DNA of 40,782 bases from a virus (IMGVR_UViG_3300048999_000045:1-40782); one strand, 5' to 3'. Positions 18,303-40,732 are shown, counted from the first letter of the stretch. Notes: generated from the sequence alone by a model not told the origin. A program made the numbers and translations.

Positions 18303-19808
18303 TTAGCCGATGTTGGCGATGACGCCCATCGACGGCGGGAAGTAATGCTGGAGCACCTCGTCGGCATAGACGCCGTACTCGTACTTACGAGTGCGGAGCG
18401 GCCATTCGATCTGGTAGTACTCCTGGCGAGTGCGGATCTGCACCACATTGCCGACGCCCGACACCGGATAAGGAATGCTCATCGAGGTGAACAGGATCAT
18501 GCCCTGCGGCATGTTCGGGTGGATGCGGATCTTGACCACGTTCGCGCCGGCCATCGAGAACCGGTTCAGGTAGGTTGCGACCATGACGCCGCCGACCATC
18601 ATCCCCTGTTCCATGTTGACCACGATGCGATAGGCACCGTTTGCATTGCCGGCAAGGATCTTCTGCGAGATTGCCAGCGCTGCATCGGACGACAACCAGA
18701 TCGTGTCCGGGGTCAGCTTGTAGAGATCCCAGAACGACTTGAGAGCCGCATCGATTTCCACGATGCCACCCGCGCCGTCGGCAGTCAGCGTCGCACCGTC
18801 GAGCGAACGGTAGTAGGCATTGCTGCCTGCCTTCATCGCCTGAGTGAGAAGCCCGTCGAAGACGAGGTTGTTGGCCGAGTTGTCAGCCGCCGGCAACGTC
18901 GAAGCTGCCTGCGTTCCGACACCCGCATCGGTCGTAAGAACCGCGGTGTTGACCGTGGTGATCTGACCGAGCGTTGCAGTACCCGCCGCAGCGCCCCAGA
19001 ACCAAGCATAAGCGACGGCGCCGCGGACAGCGACAACCGTTGCAGTGATGGAACCGGTCGTTCCGGAGGTTGCCACAGAGGCGTCGACCGAAACCTGCGC
19101 AGATCCGCCGCCGAAGGTGTCCGTCGAAGCATCGGCGTTGGTACGGGTGACGGAAGTCGGAATGCCCGCGACAACCGATGCGTTGATGTAGCCCTCGAGC
19201 GTCAGAGCGACGACCCGAACGTGCTTGGTGGTGGCGGTCATCGTTCCGCCCGTGGTCGATGCAGTCAGCGATGCAGTCGGCGTAACACCGAGAGCAAGCG
19301 TACCGTTGCCGCCGAGGATCAGAATTTCCTCCGCAAGCATCAGTGCCTGAAGGCCAACCTTCGCTGCGAGAGCGCGGATGTCTTCGAAGCCCTGGCCGGC
19401 ATACTGCGCCTCGAAGTCCACGTTGTCTTCGATGCCGATGCCTTTGTAGGCAGCCGCATAGTCGGCAACGCTGACAGCCATGACGGCGCCGCGGTTACCA
19501 CCCGAGACACCAACGCGGATGCCCGAGGTGTTGATACCCGTGACGGCTTTCCAGTTGGCCTGGATACCGCCGCGACCCGAAACACGCGGGATCTCGTTGC
19601 GGAGAGGCGTGAGGACCGGGTAGAGCATCTTGGCGCCGGCCTCGAGGTCATAGAAGGTAAGACCCGTGGTGGCGGAACCCGACTGTGCGAACGTCGACTT
19701 GAGAAGGTCGCTGTTCTCACCGGTCAGGATCGGTGACGTGGCAAGTGCCTTCATGAGGGCGTCCAGGGAAGTACCCGCAGCGAGGCCCTGTTCTTGAAGC
19801 ATATTCAT
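18303..19808 (-). CDS. major capsid protein, HK97 fold, with inserted Ig-like domain
   Basis: 501 residues if the ATG at 19806-19808 is used. That start is preferred because GGAG sits 6 bases before it; the ATG 12 bases upstream has no site, and its codons contain the ribosome binding site. Residues about 60-170 and 310-500 carry HK97-fold features (KMLYPVLTPLRNEIPRVSG, then GIQANWKAVTGI; RVGVSGGNRGAV; a C-terminal GMILFTSMSIPYPVSGVG). Between them, about residues 175-310, lies a Thr/Ser/Ala/Gly-rich beta region that reads as an inserted immunoglobulin-like domain. No obvious decoration gene is nearby, so the insert may provide the surface feature. Capsid shell subunit. Confidence 0.85.
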   Translation of the reverse strand: MNMLQEQGLAAGTSLDALMKALATSPILTGENSDLLKSTFAQSGSATTGLTFYDLEAGAKMLYPVLTPLRNEIPRVSGRGGIQANWKAVTGINTSGIRVGVSGGNRGAVMAVSVADYAAAYKGIGIEDNVDFEAQYAGQGFEDIRALAAKVGLQALMLAEEILILGGNGTLALGVTPTASLTASTTGGTMTATTKHVRVVALTLEGYINASVVAGIPTSVTRTNADASTDTFGGGSAQVSVDASVATSGTTGSITATVVAVRGAVAYAWFWGAAAGTATLGQITTVNTAVLTTDAGVGTQAASTLPAADNSANNLVFDGLLTQAMKAGSNAYYRSLDGATLTADGAGGIVEIDAALKSFWDLYKLTPDTIWLSSDAALAISQKILAGNANGAYRIVVNMEQGMMVGGVMVATYLNRFSMAGANVVKIRIHPNMPQGMILFTSMSIPYPVSGVGNVVQIRTRQEYYQIEWPLRTRKYEYGVYADEVLQHYFPPSMGVIANIG

Positions 19809-19820
19809 ATAAAACTCCAT

Positions 19821-27167: not shown

Positions 27168-27409
27168 TGGCTAAAGAGAAACGGGATAAACCTCCTCCCG
27201 GTGGCTGGCTCGGCCCACCACGAACGACGGGACTTAAAGGACTACGAGAAGCAGTTTCATCTAAGAAGGGAAAATGGAAATGGAAGGAAATACCACAGAA
27301 GGCCAAGGATCGACGGCTTCGCAAGGAGTGGGACCGTCGGATGGCCAAGGCGGACGCGAAGGGGAAGTGGCACTTTCCGTGGCCTCCGAAGGATTTGCAA
27401 GGATCGTAG
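27167..27409 (+). CDS. small basic protein overlapping the ThyX gene
   Basis: 80 residues, very basic (Lys, Arg and Trp-rich: KGKWKWKEI, KEWDRRMAK), with many Gly and Pro near the start. AGGAAC precedes the ATG. The gene overlaps the next gene in another frame by 136 bases, which suggests that the start of the ThyX-like gene may be further downstream. No family is recognised. A DNA- or RNA-binding role would fit the charge but is unproven. Confidence 0.45.
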   Translation: MAKEKRDKPPPGGWLGPPRTTGLKGLREAVSSKKGKWKWKEIPQKAKDRRLRKEWDRRMAKADAKGKWHFPWPPKDLQGS

Positions 27410-28239
27410 CAGACAGCATAAGTCCACAGGGCATCCGGATCACGACGTTCCACCTTCGATACTGGCGAGCGATCCACGCAGAGTTGATGACGCACCGGGT
27501 CTTTAGCAGGAATGCTCGATCTAGTCGTGCGGTTCCGTCTAAAGTTCTCTTGACAGAGCCTATCTTCATTCCGGTGTTTGGTATGAATAAGCCGGGCATG
27601 CAATCGGACATCACGGCTCCCGAAGAACTTCAGATGAAGTGGCGCAACGAGTGGCAGGATCTTGCCGCGGTCTGTCGAGACTATGTCGAGCGGTGGTCGG
27701 GAGAGGGAATGCACAAGCAGCATGCTAATCGACCGCTGGAGTGGTTCGGGTGGATCGACGTCCTAGTGACCTCCACTTACTGGGAGAACTTCTGGACGTT
27801 GAGGATCAGTGAATATGCACAACCGGAGTTCGACGAGTTGGCCAAGCAGATGAAATATCAGATGAGGTGGTGTTCTACTCCTCGTCTACTTCAACCGGGT
27901 GAGTGGCATCTACCCTACATCACTGGGGAGGAAAGAAACTCAGAGTATCCTATTCCGCTCGAGGATCTGCTGAAGATCTCCACAGCTCGATGTGCGAGGC
28001 TGTCCTACAAGCCGTTCGACGGTAACGCAGACTATGACGCCGAGGTCTCACGTTATGAGAAACTAGTCGTCAGTAGTCCCGTTCACGCATCGCCTGCTGA
28101 GCATCAGGCTACTCCGGACACCTTTACCCATACACTAGGCGGAGGTTGGGACCATCCAGGACAGCACGGCAACTTTTTGGGTTGGCGCCAACACAGGAAG
28201 ATGATCCCGGGTGAAGCAATTATGGAGACTACTCGGTGA
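27274..28239 (+). CDS. thyX: FAD-dependent thymidylate synthase, ThyX-like
   Basis: A 321-residue reading frame. ThyX makes dTMP from dUMP with FAD, serving phage DNA synthesis. The family signature R-H-R-x7-S is present as THR-x7-S (Thr73-His74-Arg75, Ser83) followed by RAVP; the first Arg is replaced by Thr. The C-terminal half has TARCARLSYKPF, and the VHASPAEHQATPD segment near 280 is common in phage ThyX-like proteins. The first 30 residues are low-complexity (TEGQGSTASQGVG, then PSDGQGGREG), so the true start may be GTG at 27367 (Val32) rather than ATG 27274. The stop overlaps the next gene start by 4 bases. Confidence 0.8.
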   Translation: MEMEGNTTEGQGSTASQGVGPSDGQGGREGEVALSVASEGFARIVADSISPQGIRITTFHLRYWRAIHAELMTHRVFSRNARSSRAVPSKVLLTEPIFIPVFGMNKPGMQSDITAPEELQMKWRNEWQDLAAVCRDYVERWSGEGMHKQHANRPLEWFGWIDVLVTSTYWENFWTLRISEYAQPEFDELAKQMKYQMRWCSTPRLLQPGEWHLPYITGEERNSEYPIPLEDLLKISTARCARLSYKPFDGNADYDAEVSRYEKLVVSSPVHASPAEHQATPDTFTHTLGGGWDHPGQHGNFLGWRQHRKMIPGEAIMETTR

Positions 28240-34249: not shown

Positions 34250-34290
34250 CTCCCTGTAGAACGTCCCTCTACAGGTAGCCGAGGTGGCTA
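34250..34290 (-). promoter_or_regulatory. two tandem hairpins before the membrane-peptide gene
   Basis: Read on the minus strand, GTAGCC-ACCTC-GGCTAC includes the stop of the gene at 34288, and CCTGTAGA-N7-TCTACAGG follows and ends at the GGAGG of the next gene. A ribosome stopping at 34288 would disturb the first and could free or hide the second. This looks like translational control of the 36-residue peptide, by position. Confidence 0.4.
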
Positions 34291-34449
34291 CTTGATTTCG
34301 GCAATCTCGATGGTCAGCGTCTTGGGCGGATCGCCCTTCTTGAACGCGGTCTTCTTGATGTAGAGCGAAGGGATCGGGGCATCGTCGTCCCCGTTCTTAT
34401 AGACGTTGGTACCCTTCGTTTCGCGGTCGAATTTCAAAGTAGTCTTCAT
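34288..34449 (-). CDS. 53-residue phage protein (KFDRETK type)
   Basis: MKTTLKFDRETKGTNVYKNG at the start, then PSLYIKKTAFKKGDPPKTLT and an acidic end. The pattern K-F-D-R-E-T-K, N-x-Y/V, a strand reading LYIKK, then PKTLTIEI matches a common short phage protein of unknown function. AGGAG lies 6 bases before the ATG, and a strong promoter (34476-34504) lies immediately upstream. Its leader (AGGAGCCCACC) is almost the same as that of the gene at 33209. Probably an abundant early protein. Confidence 0.65.
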   Translation of the reverse strand: MKTTLKFDRETKGTNVYKNGDDDAPIPSLYIKKTAFKKGDPPKTLTIEIAEIK

Positions 34450-35623: not shown

Positions 35624-35800
35624 ATGCCTCGCCATGACTATATTCCTCTGAAGCATGTGCTTCCCAAGGGGATGAGTGCCAAGGTTGCTCGGTCACATCT
35701 GCGTAACCAGACCAAATTCCATCAGCGCGACGGTCGATGGGAGTTTCCCCGTAAGACCGCTGATCGTGTCGAGAACTTCCTCGTCGATCACACAAGCTGA
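35624..35800 (+). CDS. 58-residue basic protein, only rightward gene in this region
   Basis: From ATG 35624 to TGA 35798, with AAGGAG 8 bases before it. The sequence (RHDYIPLKHVLPKGMSAKVA, then RSHLRNQTKFHQRD) is basic, with a DNA- or RNA-binding look: conserved Gly-Met-Ser, then a helix-like RSHLRNQTK. It is the only rightward gene between 30 and 40.7 kb, with its own promoter and a strong terminator. A regulator is plausible, given its place next to the operator-like repeat; that is inference. Confidence 0.6.
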   Translation: MPRHDYIPLKHVLPKGMSAKVARSHLRNQTKFHQRDGRWEFPRKTADRVENFLVDHTS

Positions 35801-35806
35801 CCCCTA

Positions 35807-35851
35807 GGGTCCGACGTCTCAACCCTCCCATATCCCCGAGACGTCGGGCCC
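35807..35851. terminator. 14-base-pair terminator hairpin
   Basis: GGGTCCGACGTCTC (35807-35820) pairs with GAGACGTCGGGCCC (35838-35851), 14 base pairs with one G-U, around a 17-base loop, followed by GCCTTTCCTC. It lies between the converging genes at 35800 and 35860 and can serve both. Confidence 0.75.
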
Positions 35852-35859
35852 GCCTTTCC

Positions 35860-36120
35860 TCAACGTTCGTAGGTTATACGTACCGGGGTGTGTTTGTAGA
35901 TAAGCAGATGGGGAACGATCATCCTATCATAGGGTTGCCGGCGTCCTGCGAAGCCGGGCGGGTATTCTGCCTTGATGTCCCGCTCGACAGCCTGATCGAG
36001 GACTGCCCACTCAACCAGGCCCTGGCATTTAATATCTACCTGAATATCTGTGGGCTTGCAGCCGTGGAGTTCGAGCTCGCGCTGAAGCGCCTCGACAAAG
36101 ACACCTAGTTCCTTAAGCAC
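35860..36120 (-). CDS. hypothetical protein, last gene of cassette
   Basis: 86 residues, N-terminal helix (LKELGVFVEALQRELELHGC) then mixed fold with DIQVDIKCQGLVEWAVLDQA and two Cys. The start overlaps the upstream stop by one base. It is the fifteenth gene of the cassette and ends just before the 14-base-pair hairpin. No family recognised. Confidence 0.5.
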   Translation of the reverse strand: MLKELGVFVEALQRELELHGCKPTDIQVDIKCQGLVEWAVLDQAVERDIKAEYPPGFAGRRQPYDRMIVPHLLIYKHTPVRITYER

Positions 36121-36560
36121 TAGATCCTTTCCTCCAAGATGAGTTTTCCAAGCAGTCGATAGACTCGCTCCTCATTGTCGGACATCCGCACGATGTCGGG
36201 CGTGTCTCGTATAGCGGACCCGATAACCTTGCGACGGTTAGGCGGCAAGGCCTGAACCGCCTCGATCACGTCAGCGACTGTGGGCACGTCATCTGGAAAC
36301 CGCTCGATGGCTGAACGAGACAGGTTCTTCATGTCGTCCAGGTCCCACTGACCGCTAAAGACCATCGCGCATTGAAGGTAACCGAGCCATCGATGTGATT
36401 TGCGCCCCTCGACAGCGCCCGAGGTGATTTGATCGCACATCCACAGGAAGTGATGCACAGTATCGCCTGACACCTCCTGACGTGCATCTATTTGCCTGTG
36501 AGGATCGATCATCTCCCTGATCTGCTCGGCGCAATAGGTAACTGCTTGCTGGTTCATCAC
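36120..36560 (-). CDS. hypothetical protein
   Basis: 146 residues, helical: VTYCAEQIREMIDPHRQIDA, then HHFLWMCDQITSGAVEGRKS and PTVADVIEAVQALPPNRRKV. It has three Cys. It overlaps the upstream gene by 4 bases (36557-36560) and the downstream gene by 1. I do not recognise a family. Part of the leftward cassette. Confidence 0.5.
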   Translation of the reverse strand: MMNQQAVTYCAEQIREMIDPHRQIDARQEVSGDTVHHFLWMCDQITSGAVEGRKSHRWLGYLQCAMVFSGQWDLDDMKNLSRSAIERFPDDVPTVADVIEAVQALPPNRRKVIGSAIRDTPDIVRMSDNEERVYRLLGKLILEERI

Positions 36561-36961
36561 TCTGCTTCTTCCTTGTCTCGCTCGGCGTAGAATGCCTCCT
36601 GAGCGGTGATGGCTGCCTTACGAGCAGCAGTCGGGTTCTCGACACCCAAGTCCCGCAGCAGTGCATCAAGTTCGTAGTCGCCGTGATCGTACCAACGAGG
36701 CTCGATGAGCATGAAGCCGTCCTCATCCGCCTTCCGAACGTGGAACTTACAAGAGCGACCATGAACGTAATCCATGTCAGCCAGGAGTCTAGAGTGACCG
36801 CGGGCTATGATTTCTTGGACGGTCTCTTCTTCAAGAGGTCCTTCACGGTGATGTAGAAACCCCAAACCCTGGGGCTGAGACAACTCAAACGCTTTCTTGA
36901 TGGCGTCGGGAAGCCTGTCTCTAGATACTTTGATAAAGCACTCGTCACCCATCGTTCTCAT
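36557..36961 (-). CDS. hypothetical protein with YVHGRSCKF motif
   Basis: 134 residues. The middle stretch (ADMDYVHGRSCKFHVRKADE, then FMLIEPRWYDHGDYELDALL) looks like a family found in several phage and plasmid proteins, with an HGR-x-CK element, a strand and a WYDH element. A helical Ala-rich end follows. No activity has been assigned to the pattern that I know of. It lies one base after the upstream stop and overlaps the next gene by 4 bases. Confidence 0.5.
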   Translation of the reverse strand: MRTMGDECFIKVSRDRLPDAIKKAFELSQPQGLGFLHHREGPLEEETVQEIIARGHSRLLADMDYVHGRSCKFHVRKADEDGFMLIEPRWYDHGDYELDALLRDLGVENPTAARKAAITAQEAFYAERDKEEAE

Positions 36962-36962
36962 T

Positions 36963-37265
36963 CTAGTTCTCCTTTACTCCATGGTGCTCAGTCAAGCTGT
37001 CCACCCACTCTTTGCCGCTGAGCTTGACATAGGTGGTGGTTGGTAGAAGCAAGACGACCTGGTAGTCATGCGGAAGGTAGATCACGGGCCAGTGTAACCG
37101 ACCCTCGATGATAGAATAGCCGATGATGTGCCAGTGAAGGCCCTCTTCTTCCACGAGACTGTGGTGATCGACGCGGCAGACTGTGTCCTCACGATTGGGC
37201 AGCTCGAAGACGTTGCCCACCTCCAGTGAGCCGACCGGGATCCATGACCGCTCATACCCCGACAT
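36963..37265 (-). CDS. hypothetical protein, beta-rich
   Basis: 100 residues. VGNVFELPNREDTVCRVDHH and VVLLLPTTTYVKLSG suggest a beta-rich small domain; several His residues are clustered at 33-46. It overlaps the upstream membrane-anchored gene by one base. No family recognised. Confidence 0.5.
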   Translation of the reverse strand: MSGYERSWIPVGSLEVGNVFELPNREDTVCRVDHHSLVEEEGLHWHIIGYSIIEGRLHWPVIYLPHDYQVVLLLPTTTYVKLSGKEWVDSLTEHHGVKEN

Positions 37266-37480
37266 CAGTCGTCCCCGTATGGCGAGAGGGCACCATTAGT
37301 CAATCGAGGGGGAGGACTACCCGTGTTGCGCCACTCCCTTGCCTCGTTAACCGTGATGAACCCACGCTGGAGAAAGATCAGGATCTGCTCATCGTCCTTG
37401 TACCGCTTCACGAGACTACGAATAGCAAGAAAGGCTCCAATCCCCATACCAATGATTATGGCGATAATTGTAAGGGTCAC
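37265..37480 (-). CDS. single-span membrane protein
   Basis: 71 residues. The N-terminal segment (TLTIIAIIIGMGIGAFLAIR) is one membrane helix, followed by a charged cytoplasmic domain with ILIFLQRGFITVNEAREW. It overlaps the next gene upstream by 4 bases. Unknown function. Confidence 0.55.
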   Translation of the reverse strand: MTLTIIAIIIGMGIGAFLAIRSLVKRYKDDEQILIFLQRGFITVNEAREWRNTGSPPPRLTNGALSPYGDD

Positions 37481-37668
37481 GTCAACTTCTCCTCATTGAC
37501 AGCTCGGATAATGCGTTCTGCATCGGACCGTCTAAGTTCCTTAACTTCTCGACCGCCATAGCCGAACCCGACTTGAGCTACCGCCCAACCATTAGCATCG
37601 CGGATGGTGAAGCAGGTTTTCATCTCGTGTAGTGTCCATGGTCTTGGTGAAGTTTTTGGTCTCATCAT
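37477..37668 (-). CDS. short protein of the DANG-x-x-VA type
   Basis: 63 residues with FTIRDANGWAVAQVGFGYGG and an AERIIRAVNEEKL end. The layout (a strand pair with Asp-Ala-Asn-Gly, then a helix with Ile-x-Arg-Ala-Val-Asn) is frequent among short phage proteins of unknown function. It overlaps both neighbours by 4 bases. Confidence 0.55.
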   Translation of the reverse strand: MMRPKTSPRPWTLHEMKTCFTIRDANGWAVAQVGFGYGGREVKELRRSDAERIIRAVNEEKLT

Positions 37669-37919
37669 CGGGCCCTATATACGTGCCAAACAAACTGATT
37701 ACAGACGCAAGACCCTACGTGAGTACTACGAGCGGGATCCGGGATGTTGTGACCTGTTCCAACTAGAATGAAGTCTTGGCGACCAATCACTTCCTCTACG
37801 TCGGTATGCTCAATCCACAAGGTCGGTAGATCTTGGTTATGCTGTTGAGCAACTAGCACTACGCGCCCCAGCGGCGTTGAGGTTCCTCCAGAACTCATCG
37901 GGTACTTCAAAACTCTCAC
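37665..37919 (-). CDS. hypothetical protein
   Basis: 84 residues from GTG 37917-37919, which has GGAG 8 bases upstream and overlaps the preceding stop (GTGA). The reading frame is open further, but that part overlaps the zinc-ribbon gene in another frame and is rejected. The protein has RVVLVAQQHNQDLPTLWIEH and a Cys-x-Cys near the C-terminus (SCVCNQFVWH). Unknown family. Confidence 0.5.
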   Translation of the reverse strand: MRVLKYPMSSGGTSTPLGRVVLVAQQHNQDLPTLWIEHTDVEEVIGRQDFILVGTGHNIPDPARSTHVGSCVCNQFVWHVYRAR

Positions 37920-38104
37920 GTTAGGTTCTCCGTATACTTGAGGGTGGCGTTGTCGTCTGACATCATAACACAACCTCGGATTTCCGGGAATATCCGGGCG
38001 GAACATTCTGGACAGTAGTTCGGGAACCGAGGATTGACCCAGCAGAGCAATGTCCCACAGCAGGGTGTCTTCAGCAGACGGAAGTGCACTCGCTCCGTAC
38101 TCAT
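37916..38104 (-). CDS. small zinc-ribbon protein
   Basis: 62 residues with a Cys-Cys-Gly-x-x-x-Cys near residue 14 (TPCCGTLLCW) and a CPEC motif near 31, the layout of a treble-clef or ribbon zinc site. A charged tail follows. It overlaps the genes on either side by 4 bases. Small zinc-ribbon proteins in phages often modify host complexes, but no target can be inferred here. Confidence 0.6.
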   Translation of the reverse strand: MSTERVHFRLLKTPCCGTLLCWVNPRFPNYCPECSARIFPEIRGCVMMSDDNATLKYTENLT

Positions 38105-38286
38105 CGTTTGGCCTTTCTACTCTCATCATACTGGTGCCACTCGTTCTCCTCAGCTTCCTTGCGCTCTACGAACCGACGAAACTCGTCTCTCATATCCCAG
38201 TTGGGATGCTTGGCCAGCATGCGCTCGAACACCGCACGGTGGGTCCGAGCTGGAAATGCGGGCCGGGCATGTTCTGGCCTTCTCAT
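38101..38286 (-). CDS. small charged protein
   Basis: 61 residues, very charged, with HRAVFERMLAKHPNWDMRDE and a Lys/Arg/Glu-rich end. GGAAGG lies 7 bases before the ATG. It overlaps both neighbours by 4 bases. Helical, probably soluble, unknown. Confidence 0.5.
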   Translation of the reverse strand: MRRPEHARPAFPARTHRAVFERMLAKHPNWDMRDEFRRFVERKEAEENEWHQYDESRKAKR

Positions 38287-38480
38287 GATAGGGCCTTCCT
38301 TAGTCCATGCTCGATAAGGCGTGTTAGATCCGTTGAGCCGCAGGTTACCTTCAGTGTGGACAGGTCCGCACCCATTCTAGCGCAAGCGAGCAAGTAGAGC
38401 TGCATCTCGAGGAGTTGCTCATGCTCTCGCTCCTGGAGTCCTGTGTCGGGTAACTGTATGCTGCTCTTAAACGGGATCAT
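38283..38480 (-). CDS. small hypothetical protein
   Basis: 65 residues from ATG 38478-38480, with GGAAGG upstream; the longer open frame upstream is out-of-frame sequence of the next gene and is rejected. It contains a helix (REHEQLLEMQLYLLACARMG) and ends in an LIEHGLRKALS-type helix. It overlaps both neighbours by 4 bases. Unknown. Confidence 0.5.
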   Translation of the reverse strand: MIPFKSSIQLPDTGLQEREHEQLLEMQLYLLACARMGADLSTLKVTCGSTDLTRLIEHGLRKALS

Positions 38481-38767
38481 CCCTCTTCCTTCCACAGGCC
38501 GACAGTCTCCCACTCGCTTAGTAGCTCTGGCAGGGTGAGATATCGGGTCGCGGTGCGAAGCCTCCTGTTGAGCTGCCGAGCTGTGGGATCTACGAACGTT
38601 GTTCCTCGCCAGATCACTAGGTGGTACTGGTACCCATGCTCTACCAGATCCGGGTGGATAGAGTGTGTGGGACCCTTGTATCCCTTGCATTCCATGATGA
38701 TCGACCGCGGATGCTTCTGTCTATAGGACAGACAGGCCTCTAGACAGGAGTATGGAACGGTGCTCAT
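38477..38767 (-). CDS. possible papain/transglutaminase-like small protein
   Basis: 96 residues from ATG 38765-38767. SCLEACLSYR near the start, His49 in HGYQYHLVIW and Asp60 in FVDPTARQL make a Cys-His-Asp order like that of papain-like or transglutaminase-like folds (the VDPTxxQ end is typical). It is far shorter than classic members, so this is a motif-level guess. It could otherwise be a nucleotide-binding or toxin-type domain. It overlaps both neighbours by 4 bases. Confidence 0.45.
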   Translation of the reverse strand: MSTVPYSCLEACLSYRQKHPRSIIMECKGYKGPTHSIHPDLVEHGYQYHLVIWRGTTFVDPTARQLNRRLRTATRYLTLPELLSEWETVGLWKEEG

Positions 38768-39174
38768 GACTGTAGCTCCGGCCAGTTTACCCTGCCCGTA
38801 GGTGGAGCATAGGATCGAGCAGCGATAGCCGCAACGCCATTCACTCCCACACCCGGGATCTGGAGAAGTCCTTCCACAGACCAGGCTTCGGGGTGCTTGA
38901 TGTCGTGCTCCTTTAGGGCATTGATCGTTCGACCGGACAGCTTCCGCTTCAGCGGCGCCGGACTTTTCGCGGGATGCTGCTTGACTAGACGCAGGCATTC
39001 CTTCAGGTGAGTGTTGAGCGCTCGAAGGGCGTTCCGCTCGTCACGCTGTCGAGCCTTGACTGTGGACGCATGCTTAGCCGACGTCTCGAGTTTGAGAATG
39101 TCCTCTGCTCTGACTCTACGTTCGATGCTGATAGCGAAGGTGTTGACTAGGTCCTGTGTGCTAATGTCTCTCAT
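38764..39174 (-). CDS. helix-hairpin-helix protein, alpha-CTD-like
   Basis: 136 residues. The first 70 are helical and basic, with RNALRALNTHLKECLRL. The C-terminal half (about 78-125) reads LSGRTINALKEHDIKHPEAW, then SVEGLLQIPGVGVNG, strikingly like the C-terminal domain of RNA polymerase alpha (LS-x-R-x-x-N-x-L, then LLxxPGVGxxxL) and like helix-hairpin-helix domains. It may contact DNA or mimic alpha-CTD. It overlaps both neighbours by 4 bases. Function unproven. Confidence 0.55.
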   Translation of the reverse strand: MRDISTQDLVNTFAISIERRVRAEDILKLETSAKHASTVKARQRDERNALRALNTHLKECLRLVKQHPAKSPAPLKRKLSGRTINALKEHDIKHPEAWSVEGLLQIPGVGVNGVAAIAARSYAPPTGRVNWPELQS

Positions 39175-39611
39175 GACTCATTCTCCTTGAGCCCGTTGGG
39201 ATAGATAATTAAGACCTGTAGCCTGAGCTTGCGAGCGTAGCGAACTGTCGCCCAGGTTCCTGATCCTCGTCGTTCCTCATCATAACCTCGAGGTGTCGCT
39301 ACCAGCAACTCACTGCATTCCACCATATCCTTATCCCGGACTAGGTAGTCTCGGGGTTCGCAGATGATCTTGGCCTTAGAGAAGTGCGCTCGATAATCGT
39401 CCTTGATCGGCGGATGCAACTGGACTAGACCGTTGTAGCCATACCAGATGGTTGCGGCTTCATAGTCCGCTCCGACGCAATCGCCGTTGTGCATCCACAG
39501 GAACCCGTCATCTCTCAAGCGGCAGAGTTGTCTGTGGAGAGTTAGCTCCTGCTGCTTGGTGATCCCCTTCTTCGTTCCGGTGAAGGCTAGGTGCCTATAG
39601 GCGGACCTCAT
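39171..39611 (-). CDS. SLOG-domain (DprA-like Rossmann) protein
   Basis: 146 residues from ATG 39609-39611 (AAAGG 7 bases upstream). AFTGTKKGIT near the start, then a HNGDCVGADYEAA motif and GSGTWATVRYARK near 120 match the SLOG superfamily, which binds nucleotides and nucleotide-derived signals. Some SLOG proteins are sensors or effectors in bacterial conflict systems; phage versions may capture signals or act on free nucleotides. It overlaps both neighbours by 4 bases. Family match is by motif; ligand unknown. Confidence 0.6.
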   Translation of the reverse strand: MRSAYRHLAFTGTKKGITKQQELTLHRQLCRLRDDGFLWMHNGDCVGADYEAATIWYGYNGLVQLHPPIKDDYRAHFSKAKIICEPRDYLVRDKDMVECSELLVATPRGYDEERRGSGTWATVRYARKLRLQVLIIYPNGLKENES

Positions 39612-39871
39612 GGTTTTGCCTTTCTGAGTTTCTTCTTGACGACCCATTGTGCCAAGGCTTTGGCCATATGCTCTTTCGCTTCATGTGCTAACCTCTTGCC
39701 GAGAGCTGCAGCTTCATCATAGTCGTCGCATGGACTGCCGGCCTCATACTGTCCGAACGGAGTCATTATCTCGGGGTAGAACCGGCCGGTCTTCCGATCA
39801 GTCTTCACTGCGCCGCTTGGTAGACGCCGGGCATCCTTGTCCAGTTCTGCGAACATTTCTTTGTCAGTCAC
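39608..39871 (-). CDS. hypothetical protein
   Basis: 87 residues from GTG 39869-39871, which overlaps the upstream stop (GTGA) and has GAGGAGG 10 bases before it; a longer upstream frame is out-of-frame sequence. The sequence (DARRLPSGAVKTDRKTGRFY; YDEAAALGKRLAHEAKEHMA) is mixed, with an Ala-rich helix and a Lys-rich end. No family recognised. Confidence 0.5.
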   Translation of the reverse strand: MTDKEMFAELDKDARRLPSGAVKTDRKTGRFYPEIMTPFGQYEAGSPCDDYDEAAALGKRLAHEAKEHMAKALAQWVVKKKLRKAKP

Positions 39872-40056
39872 TGCTTGAGTACCTCCTCTAATTCGTGGAC
39901 CGGGCAGTCTATGTCGAAGGTGTAGCTCGGATATGGGGGCTGCTTCTCCGGACAGTTGCAACCCTGCATCCTAGCGTCCTCGCTTCCGGGGAGTGGATCG
40001 GGTTTCCATCCTGGAGGTGCTCCCTTCATGTCGAACGAAACAGTCACTGTGCTCAT
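39868..40056 (-). CDS. small Cys-rich phage protein, first gene of cassette
   Basis: 62 residues from ATG 40054-40056 (AAGGAT before it; a GTG three bases earlier is possible). The sequence has GCNCPEKQPPYPSYTFDIDC and then PVHEL: a Cys-x-Cys-Pro and Asp-Cys-Pro-Val-His, a pattern seen in many short phage proteins and likely to bind a metal. It overlaps the next gene by 4 bases and begins the cassette. Confidence 0.55.
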   Translation of the reverse strand: MSTVTVSFDMKGAPPGWKPDPLPGSEDARMQGCNCPEKQPPYPSYTFDIDCPVHELEEVLKQ

Positions 40057-40127
40057 CACTTATCCTTTCAATGAATTACGTGTCTCTCAAAACCCAAACC
40101 ATATAAGATGGGACCAGGTGCGTGGGA

Positions 40128-40168
40128 TACGTATGGCCGCCTATTTTTGGACGGGGCGGTCATACGTA
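40128..40168. repeat. 14-base inverted repeat (large hairpin)
   Basis: TACGTATGGCCGCC (40128-40141) and GGCGGTCATACGTA (40155-40168) are inverted copies with one mismatch, around a 13-base loop, followed by no T-tract. It lies between the gene at 40186 and the cassette. It may be a terminator-like structure or a binding site. Nothing else is visible in the 129-base gap 40057-40185 except an AT-rich stretch near 40095-40110. Confidence 0.55.
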
Positions 40169-40185: not shown

Positions 40186-40296
40186 TTACGGCAAGACGTT
40201 GGCGATGGTCGACATCGTATGGACGAAGTTCATGAACAGCGGATAGACGAACGATACGACAGTCACGGCAACGGCAATTTGGAATAGACGGATCAT
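40186..40296 (-). CDS. 36-residue membrane peptide
   Basis: From ATG 40294-40296 to TAA 40186-40188, MIRLFQIAVAVTVVSFVYPL at the start, one membrane helix, then a short tail. AAAGGAA lies 6 bases before the ATG, similar to the leader of the gene at 40732. It lies alone between two large inverted repeats. Like the 34133-34243 peptide it is the same length, with no sequence similarity that I can see. Unknown role. Confidence 0.55.
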   Translation of the reverse strand: MIRLFQIAVAVTVVSFVYPLFMNFVHTMSTIANVLP

Positions 40297-40450: not shown

Positions 40451-40732
40451 TTAGGCGTCGGCCTTTTCGGCGTTCGCCTTTTTCGCACGTGGCGCACGGG
40501 CAGGTTTCGCAACCTTCGCGGCGTAGGTCGTATCGAACGCAGCGCGGATTGCATCATAGTCGCGTTGGTTGTTCGCAACCCATGACGTGTTGCGGATGTG
40601 CGCAGACACCTTTGCGCGTAGACGCGAACGGATTTGTTTGTCGTTCAGCGTGAACGACTTGTTGTCACGGTGCACGTCGGAGATGATGGTTTTCAACACG
40701 ACGGGAAACGTGATCGATTTACGTGCAGGCAT
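40451..40732 (-). CDS. small basic hypothetical protein
   Basis: 93 residues. PVVLKTIISDVHRDNKSFTL and VSAHIRNTSWVANNQRDYDA form a helical domain seen in various phage proteins, then an Ala/Lys-rich tail (ARAPRAKKANAEK). AAAGGA lies 7 bases before the ATG. It may bind nucleic acid through the tail. The 50 bases upstream hold a small GTCGC/GCGAC hairpin. No family recognised. Confidence 0.5.
   Translation of the reverse strand: MPARKSITFPVVLKTIISDVHRDNKSFTLNDKQIRSRLRAKVSAHIRNTSWVANNQRDYDAIRAAFDTTYAAKVAKPARAPRAKKANAEKADA

Follow-up and report, generated by a model that had tools for sequence, protein, structure and literature searches.

The 40,782-base virus record IMGVR_UViG_3300048999_000045, analysed whole and called the window below, comes from an uncultivated siphophage, some of whose relatives are Brevundimonas phages; since its nearest relatives measure 64-66 kb, it is probably a genome fragment. 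Its minus strand carries large tailed-phage genes (terminase, portal, head protease, tape measure and tail proteins) and, from 40056 leftwards to 35860, a cassette of fifteen consecutive small open reading frames (ORFs), g1 to g15, which is the subject of this study together with a conserved leader in front of it. All fifteen ORFs claimed by an earlier reading of this DNA (the original prediction) are present, each free of internal stops, and the ten joins that it listed are all 4-base overlaps of the ATGA or GTGA type, at 39868, 39608, 39171, 38764, 38477, 38283, 38101, 37916, 37665 and 37477. The remaining joins are likewise as described: 1-base overlaps at 37265 and 36120, a 1-base gap at 36962, and, between g13 and g14, an overlap of 4 bases or 1 base depending on whether g14 starts at the GTG at 36560 or the ATG at 36557.

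Joins and start sites

Overlaps of 4 bases are ordinary in kind, and are the commonest prokaryotic join (PMC10666635); what is unusual here is only their density and the run of ten. The longest run of ORFs of at least 55 amino acids (aa) with 4-base links spans 11 genes, whereas the longest chain in 300 dinucleotide shuffles of the region was 1 (210 times), 2 (87 times) or 3 (three times). Joins of this type make up 11 of 14 in the cassette and 7 of 35 elsewhere in the window (Fisher p=2e-4). Shine-Dalgarno-like words of at least 4 bases precede 13 of the 15 starts, compared with 27 of 126 other ATG or GTG codons of the region (p=1e-6). The 14 joins range from a 4-base overlap to a 1-base gap, and all fall inside the range of -8 to +6 nucleotides (nt) that is indicative of termination-reinitiation (PMC10666635); strict coupling was found in 13 of 14 tested pairs with ATGA or TGATG overlaps in E. 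coli and Haloferax (PMC6728339). The 4-base overlaps may thus couple translation along the cassette by termination-reinitiation.

Such packing could also be ordinary filler, that is, small non-essential ORFs squeezed tightly together with no shared role, their overlaps reflecting genome deletion pressure. The commonness of the 4-base join favours this explanation, as do shorter chains of similar form, seen in Brevundimonas phage Delta and, with up to 5 genes, among the relatives described below, and the low codon scores of g5-g10 (-0.08; late genes score 0.35). Compared with the late genes, the cassette has a different codon usage, most so in g5-g10, which fits recent acquisition and also weak selection on small genes. 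The Shine-Dalgarno sites at 13 of 15 starts speak against filler, and so do conserved small families, such as that of g8 with its invariant cysteines, which argue for selected function.

The locus in related phages

Relatives were gathered through a conserved capsid-region protein (18303-19820), which yielded 80 contigs, and the locus was compared in eight genomes, the window (G000) and G001-G007. Upstream of the leader lies a conserved gene of 93 aa (40451..40732, minus strand), found in 7 of the 46 records searched (G001-G007) at 38-80% identity; downstream of the cassette lies a conserved gene of 53 aa (34288..34449, minus strand), present in all of G001-G008. Homologues of these two anchor genes bracket the corresponding slot in G001-G007, and over the eight genomes the distance between anchors varies from 1.9 to 7.0 kb with differing contents. 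The eight loci have 109 called proteins, which make up 70 families; 51 of these families are singletons. Brevundimonas phages Strzyga and Polewnik were rejected as close relatives, being about 75% identical in one capsid-region gene and lacking the anchor gene.

The turnover is sharpest between the two closest relatives, G001 and G002, whose flanks are 95.0% identical over 6.4 kb upstream and 96.4% over 5.7 kb downstream, whereas inside the slot genes have given way to others, the homologue of g8 sits at another position, and DNA identity of the g4 homologue drops to 72%. These two genomes share five of the fifteen window genes (g4, g8, g11, g12 and g14), which often retain 4-base or 1-base joins despite different neighbours. 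The widest families within the slot are the helix-hairpin-helix protein g4, in six of the eight genomes, and g14, in five; g3, g8 and g13 have homologues in unrelated phages, next to other genes. Cassette genes are therefore swapped, lost and reordered between fixed anchors, the outcome that the original prediction had left to a comparison with related phages. With the same flanking genes and high turnover inside, the locus is classed by its gene content as an accessory-gene hotspot, a kind already known.

These data bear on a further explanation, that the fifteen products are subunits of one multi-part machine balanced through translational coupling. The unusually dense coupling-type joins of the cassette favour it. 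The closest relatives, however, hold only the five genes named above, reordered and among other neighbours, and g3, g8 and g13 recur in unrelated phages; the fifteen genes are thus not one co-evolved unit. The original prediction took homologues standing independently elsewhere as evidence against itself, and for a single unit this is in part what was found. A complex of all fifteen products was rejected owing to the gene turnover and we regard it as very improbable; a sub-complex of two or three cassette products could exist.

Several relatives carry recognisable genes in the slot. In the stretch from leader to downstream anchor, G007 has a 5-hmdU DNA kinase (PF18723, E=1e-78; L107:14609-15493), which points to hypermodified DNA in that phage as judged from sequence, and G005 has a Fic protein (E=1e-4). 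Hypermodifying the DNA is an established way for phages to evade restriction; the other slot genes of relatives are suggestive. Further slot contents in relatives include MazG, AAA and ThyX proteins. The position of thyX varies: in the window it lies away from the cassette on the plus strand (27274-28239), and in G004 (L104:10895-11734) and G008 (L108:10130-10960) it adjoins the downstream anchor.

ThyX and MazG-like genes in or beside the slot of G004 and G008 raise the alternative that the locus serves mainly DNA or nucleotide metabolism or replication, like the adjoining blocks, and the helix-hairpin-helix of g4, of a DNA-binding type, is in keeping with it. Against this, G001 has its replication genes, which are large and recognisable, away from the slot, and Pfam and PHROG searches found no recognisable replication gene in the window cassette. 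We consider this alternative improbable.

Leader and probable operon end

Directly upstream of g1 lies a conserved leader (40057..40160, minus strand), absent from the original prediction, which is a candidate promoter or operator. Its core is ACCTGGTCC (40119-40111), followed after 16 nt by GGTTT. ACCTGGTCC occurs once in the window and is exact in seven of the eight genomes; the window, G003, G004, G005 and G007 have the full motif ACCTGGTCC-N16-GGTTT at its exact spacing, the second part is altered in G001 and G002, and both parts are altered in G006. Just upstream of g1, 32 nt are identical among the window, G001 and G002, and similarity of the window to either of these genomes ends 18 bases before g1. 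No two of the eight genomes have a first gene of the same family after the leader; in G002 this gene is a homologue of g8 and, in G004, a homologue of g6 (65 aa; 38283..38480, minus strand). That the leader is retained before different genes is a further point against filler.

The leader core, GnACCTGGTCC, is nearly palindromic, a form that a protein-binding site could have. As a sigma-70 promoter the leader was rejected, since a scan gave no such site there; as a structured RNA it was rejected because none of the eight pairs proposed by RNAalifold had a two-sided change, and Rfam gave no match. The strict pattern, sought across all viral contigs, matched only G005 and L113 (= G043), and the latter, GC-rich, was judged a chance match. 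Between leader and upstream anchor lies a membrane-like ORF of 36 aa (40186..40296, minus strand), 56% identical in G001 and G002.

Just after g15 there is a strong hairpin (35805..35851, minus strand), within an 86-nt stretch of -36.6 kcal/mol (z=-3.5) with no U-tract. Because of this hairpin, and of a possible convergent ORF beyond it (35624-35800, for which no relatives were found), the operon probably ends after g15.

Products of the cassette

All cassette genes lie on the minus strand. The SLOG-like product named by the original prediction is g3 (146 aa; 39171..39611), backed by a match to phrog_289 (E=1.9e-6) and by mycobacteriophage relatives, up to 41% identical and annotated in part as DprA-like; its homologue on contig L094 scored below threshold on the Pfam models DprA, LDcluster4 and YAcAr. 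For viral SLOG proteins the prediction is that they counter ADP-ribose-type immune signals, which they would sense or degrade (PMC9503650).

The predicted alpha-CTD-like helix-hairpin-helix protein is g4 (136 aa; 38764..39174), helical at its N-terminus and with a helix-hairpin-helix at its C-terminus. The helix-hairpin-helix was borne out, and the resemblance to alpha-CTD stayed below threshold. The model has a pLDDT of 69, rising to 78-89 in the C-terminal part; Foldseek placed mostly alpha-CTD chains on top, with probability up to 0.96 and a TM score to target of 0.60-0.64 over 47 columns, all at E above 0.3 and hence not significant. Against PF03118 (alpha-CTD) g4 itself gave no match, and its homologue on L107 reached 13.4 bits with a cut-off of 23.8.

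One of the small Cys-rich products, g8 (62 aa; 37916..38104), is best described as a zinc ribbon, on the strength of its alignment and model. In a 16-member alignment C15, C16, C21, C31 and C34 are invariant, in CC-x4-C and C-P-x-C motifs; the model (pLDDT 91) is a confident beta structure that sets the paired cysteines on beta-hairpin knuckles. Foldseek matches of g8 were not significant. Relatives occur in Brevundimonas and Xanthomonas phages, and in the N4-like Xanthomonas phage RiverRider the family sits between the two RNA polymerase genes (L005:6001-6192). Homologues of g3 and g8 lie within 6 kb of each other on two contigs (L094:5992-8550; L090:16-6174) on which the other tested window genes were unmatched. 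The g8 homologue of G002 (L102:6391-6580) is frameshifted within a C run relative to G001; either the gene is broken or the frameshift is a sequencing error.

Further genes have family matches or relatives. The product of g9 (84 aa; 37665..37919) is a DUF7352 protein (PF24043, E=1.8e-12; phrog_3848, E=1.2e-12); g11 (71 aa; 37265..37480), with an N-terminal membrane segment by inspection, is 64-66% identical in G001 and G002; and g12 (100 aa; 36963..37265) is 90% identical in the same two genomes, with no other relatives found. Both g13 (134 aa; 36557..36961; phrog_12532, E=2.4e-12), with relatives in Erythrobacter, Xanthomonas and Caulobacter phages, and g14 (146 aa; 36120..36560; phrog_7775, E=5e-15) belong to PHROG families with no assigned function. 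In G001 and G002 the g14 homologue is in two ORFs (L101:6680-6974; L102:10136-10430). A peptide-pattern search of viral contigs gave no close relatives of g5 or g14; since direct tblastn detected g14 relatives in the loci of related phages, the peptide-pattern method misses distant relatives.

For six genes no relatives were found in the sequences searched: g1 (62 aa, containing Cys; 39868..40056), g2 (87 aa; 39608..39871), g5 (96 aa; 38477..38767), g7 (61 aa; 38101..38286), g10 (63 aa; 37477..37668) and g15 (86 aa; 35860..36120). Only ORF, Shine-Dalgarno and overlap evidence therefore speaks for them; the Shine-Dalgarno site of g10 is weak. The Cys-His-Asp-like small protein of the original prediction is probably g5, which had no Pfam or PHROG match, and no tool backed that label.

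Discussion

The account that we favour, and hold to be reasonably probable, is that the locus is an accessory hotspot in which small, exchangeable genes, most likely acting on the host in takeover or counter-defence, form one operon behind a fixed leader. The leader would serve as promoter or operator for the whole operon, giving one message that ends at the hairpin behind g15, and the genes would be expressed early. Between related phages, small genes would be gained, lost and reordered; with short overlaps, whatever ORF is inserted would be translated from the one message, and the operon would therefore work with any set of genes. The products would target host functions, each largely on its own. 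In this form the original proposal of a host-takeover or anti-defence cassette gains from the turnover of the hotspot, the leader, the kinase and Fic genes of relatives and the class of g3; its notion of one unit does not stand, and it is not helped by family matches.

Several observations weigh against the hotspot account. No cassette gene had a Pfam or PHROG match to a known anti-defence family, the ThyX and MazG genes in relatives' slots suggest that some genes may serve metabolism, and PADLOC matches in relatives were mostly weak and name defence rather than counter-defence. The sigma-70 scan found no site at the leader, and for five of six genomes the leader on its own folded no better than its shuffled versions. 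The compared contigs are metagenomic, some of them incomplete, and the relatives' genes were predicted by a simple caller with a preference for short overlaps. The main rival is ordinary packing of small mixed-use genes, which, with the evidence on both sides given above, we think unlikely.

A stronger version of the favoured account, in which this phage group uses the leader as a dedicated regulatory element and the exchangeable host-interaction operon is always under its control, is put forward tentatively and seems to us rather doubtful. If the hotspot account is true, the slot is the place in which phages of this group store exchangeable host-interaction genes, and more such genes could be found in metagenomes with the leader as a sequence tag. 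With about half of the slot proteins singletons, the locus is also a source of small proteins for host-function and counter-defence screens. Should the leader prove dedicated in the stronger sense, it could be used as bait for new anti-defence genes without any being known beforehand, a bacterial-phage counterpart of the regulatory-sequence approach taken with archaeal viruses (PMC11065993), and the short overlaps would be standard joints through which inserted genes stay translated.

The capsid-region protein used to gather relatives also has relatives (L135-L147) in bacterial genomes, including Nitrospirillum, Beijerinckiaceae, Rhodospirillales and Neisseria; these are presumably prophages.

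The cassette, known from sequence alone, can be set beside systems that have been described elsewhere. It shares ATGA or GTGA and TGATG joins with coupled overlapping gene pairs (PMC6728339, PMC10666635), which were tested pairwise in E. coli and Haloferax, whereas here ten such joins follow one another in a phage, with the Shine-Dalgarno site mostly inside the upstream gene. Like viral SLOG proteins described before (PMC9503650), g3 is a stand-alone SLOG/DprA-like protein, here of a caudovirus, but its profile matches are weak and assign it to neither the YpsA-like nor the LOG-like clade. The hotspots of P2-like phages (PMC9122126) are likewise small high-turnover loci, of about 1-5 kb, between two conserved genes; they hold validated anti-phage defence systems and belong to prophages and satellites, whereas the present locus holds many tiny ORFs with coupling-type joins in what is apparently a free phage. 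The leader has a parallel in idea at the anti-defence genes of archaeal viruses (PMC11065993), where a conserved upstream sequence also precedes changing accessory genes: there it is a strong promoter before early expressed genes, with inhibitors validated experimentally, and here a single leader per genome stands before the whole cassette.

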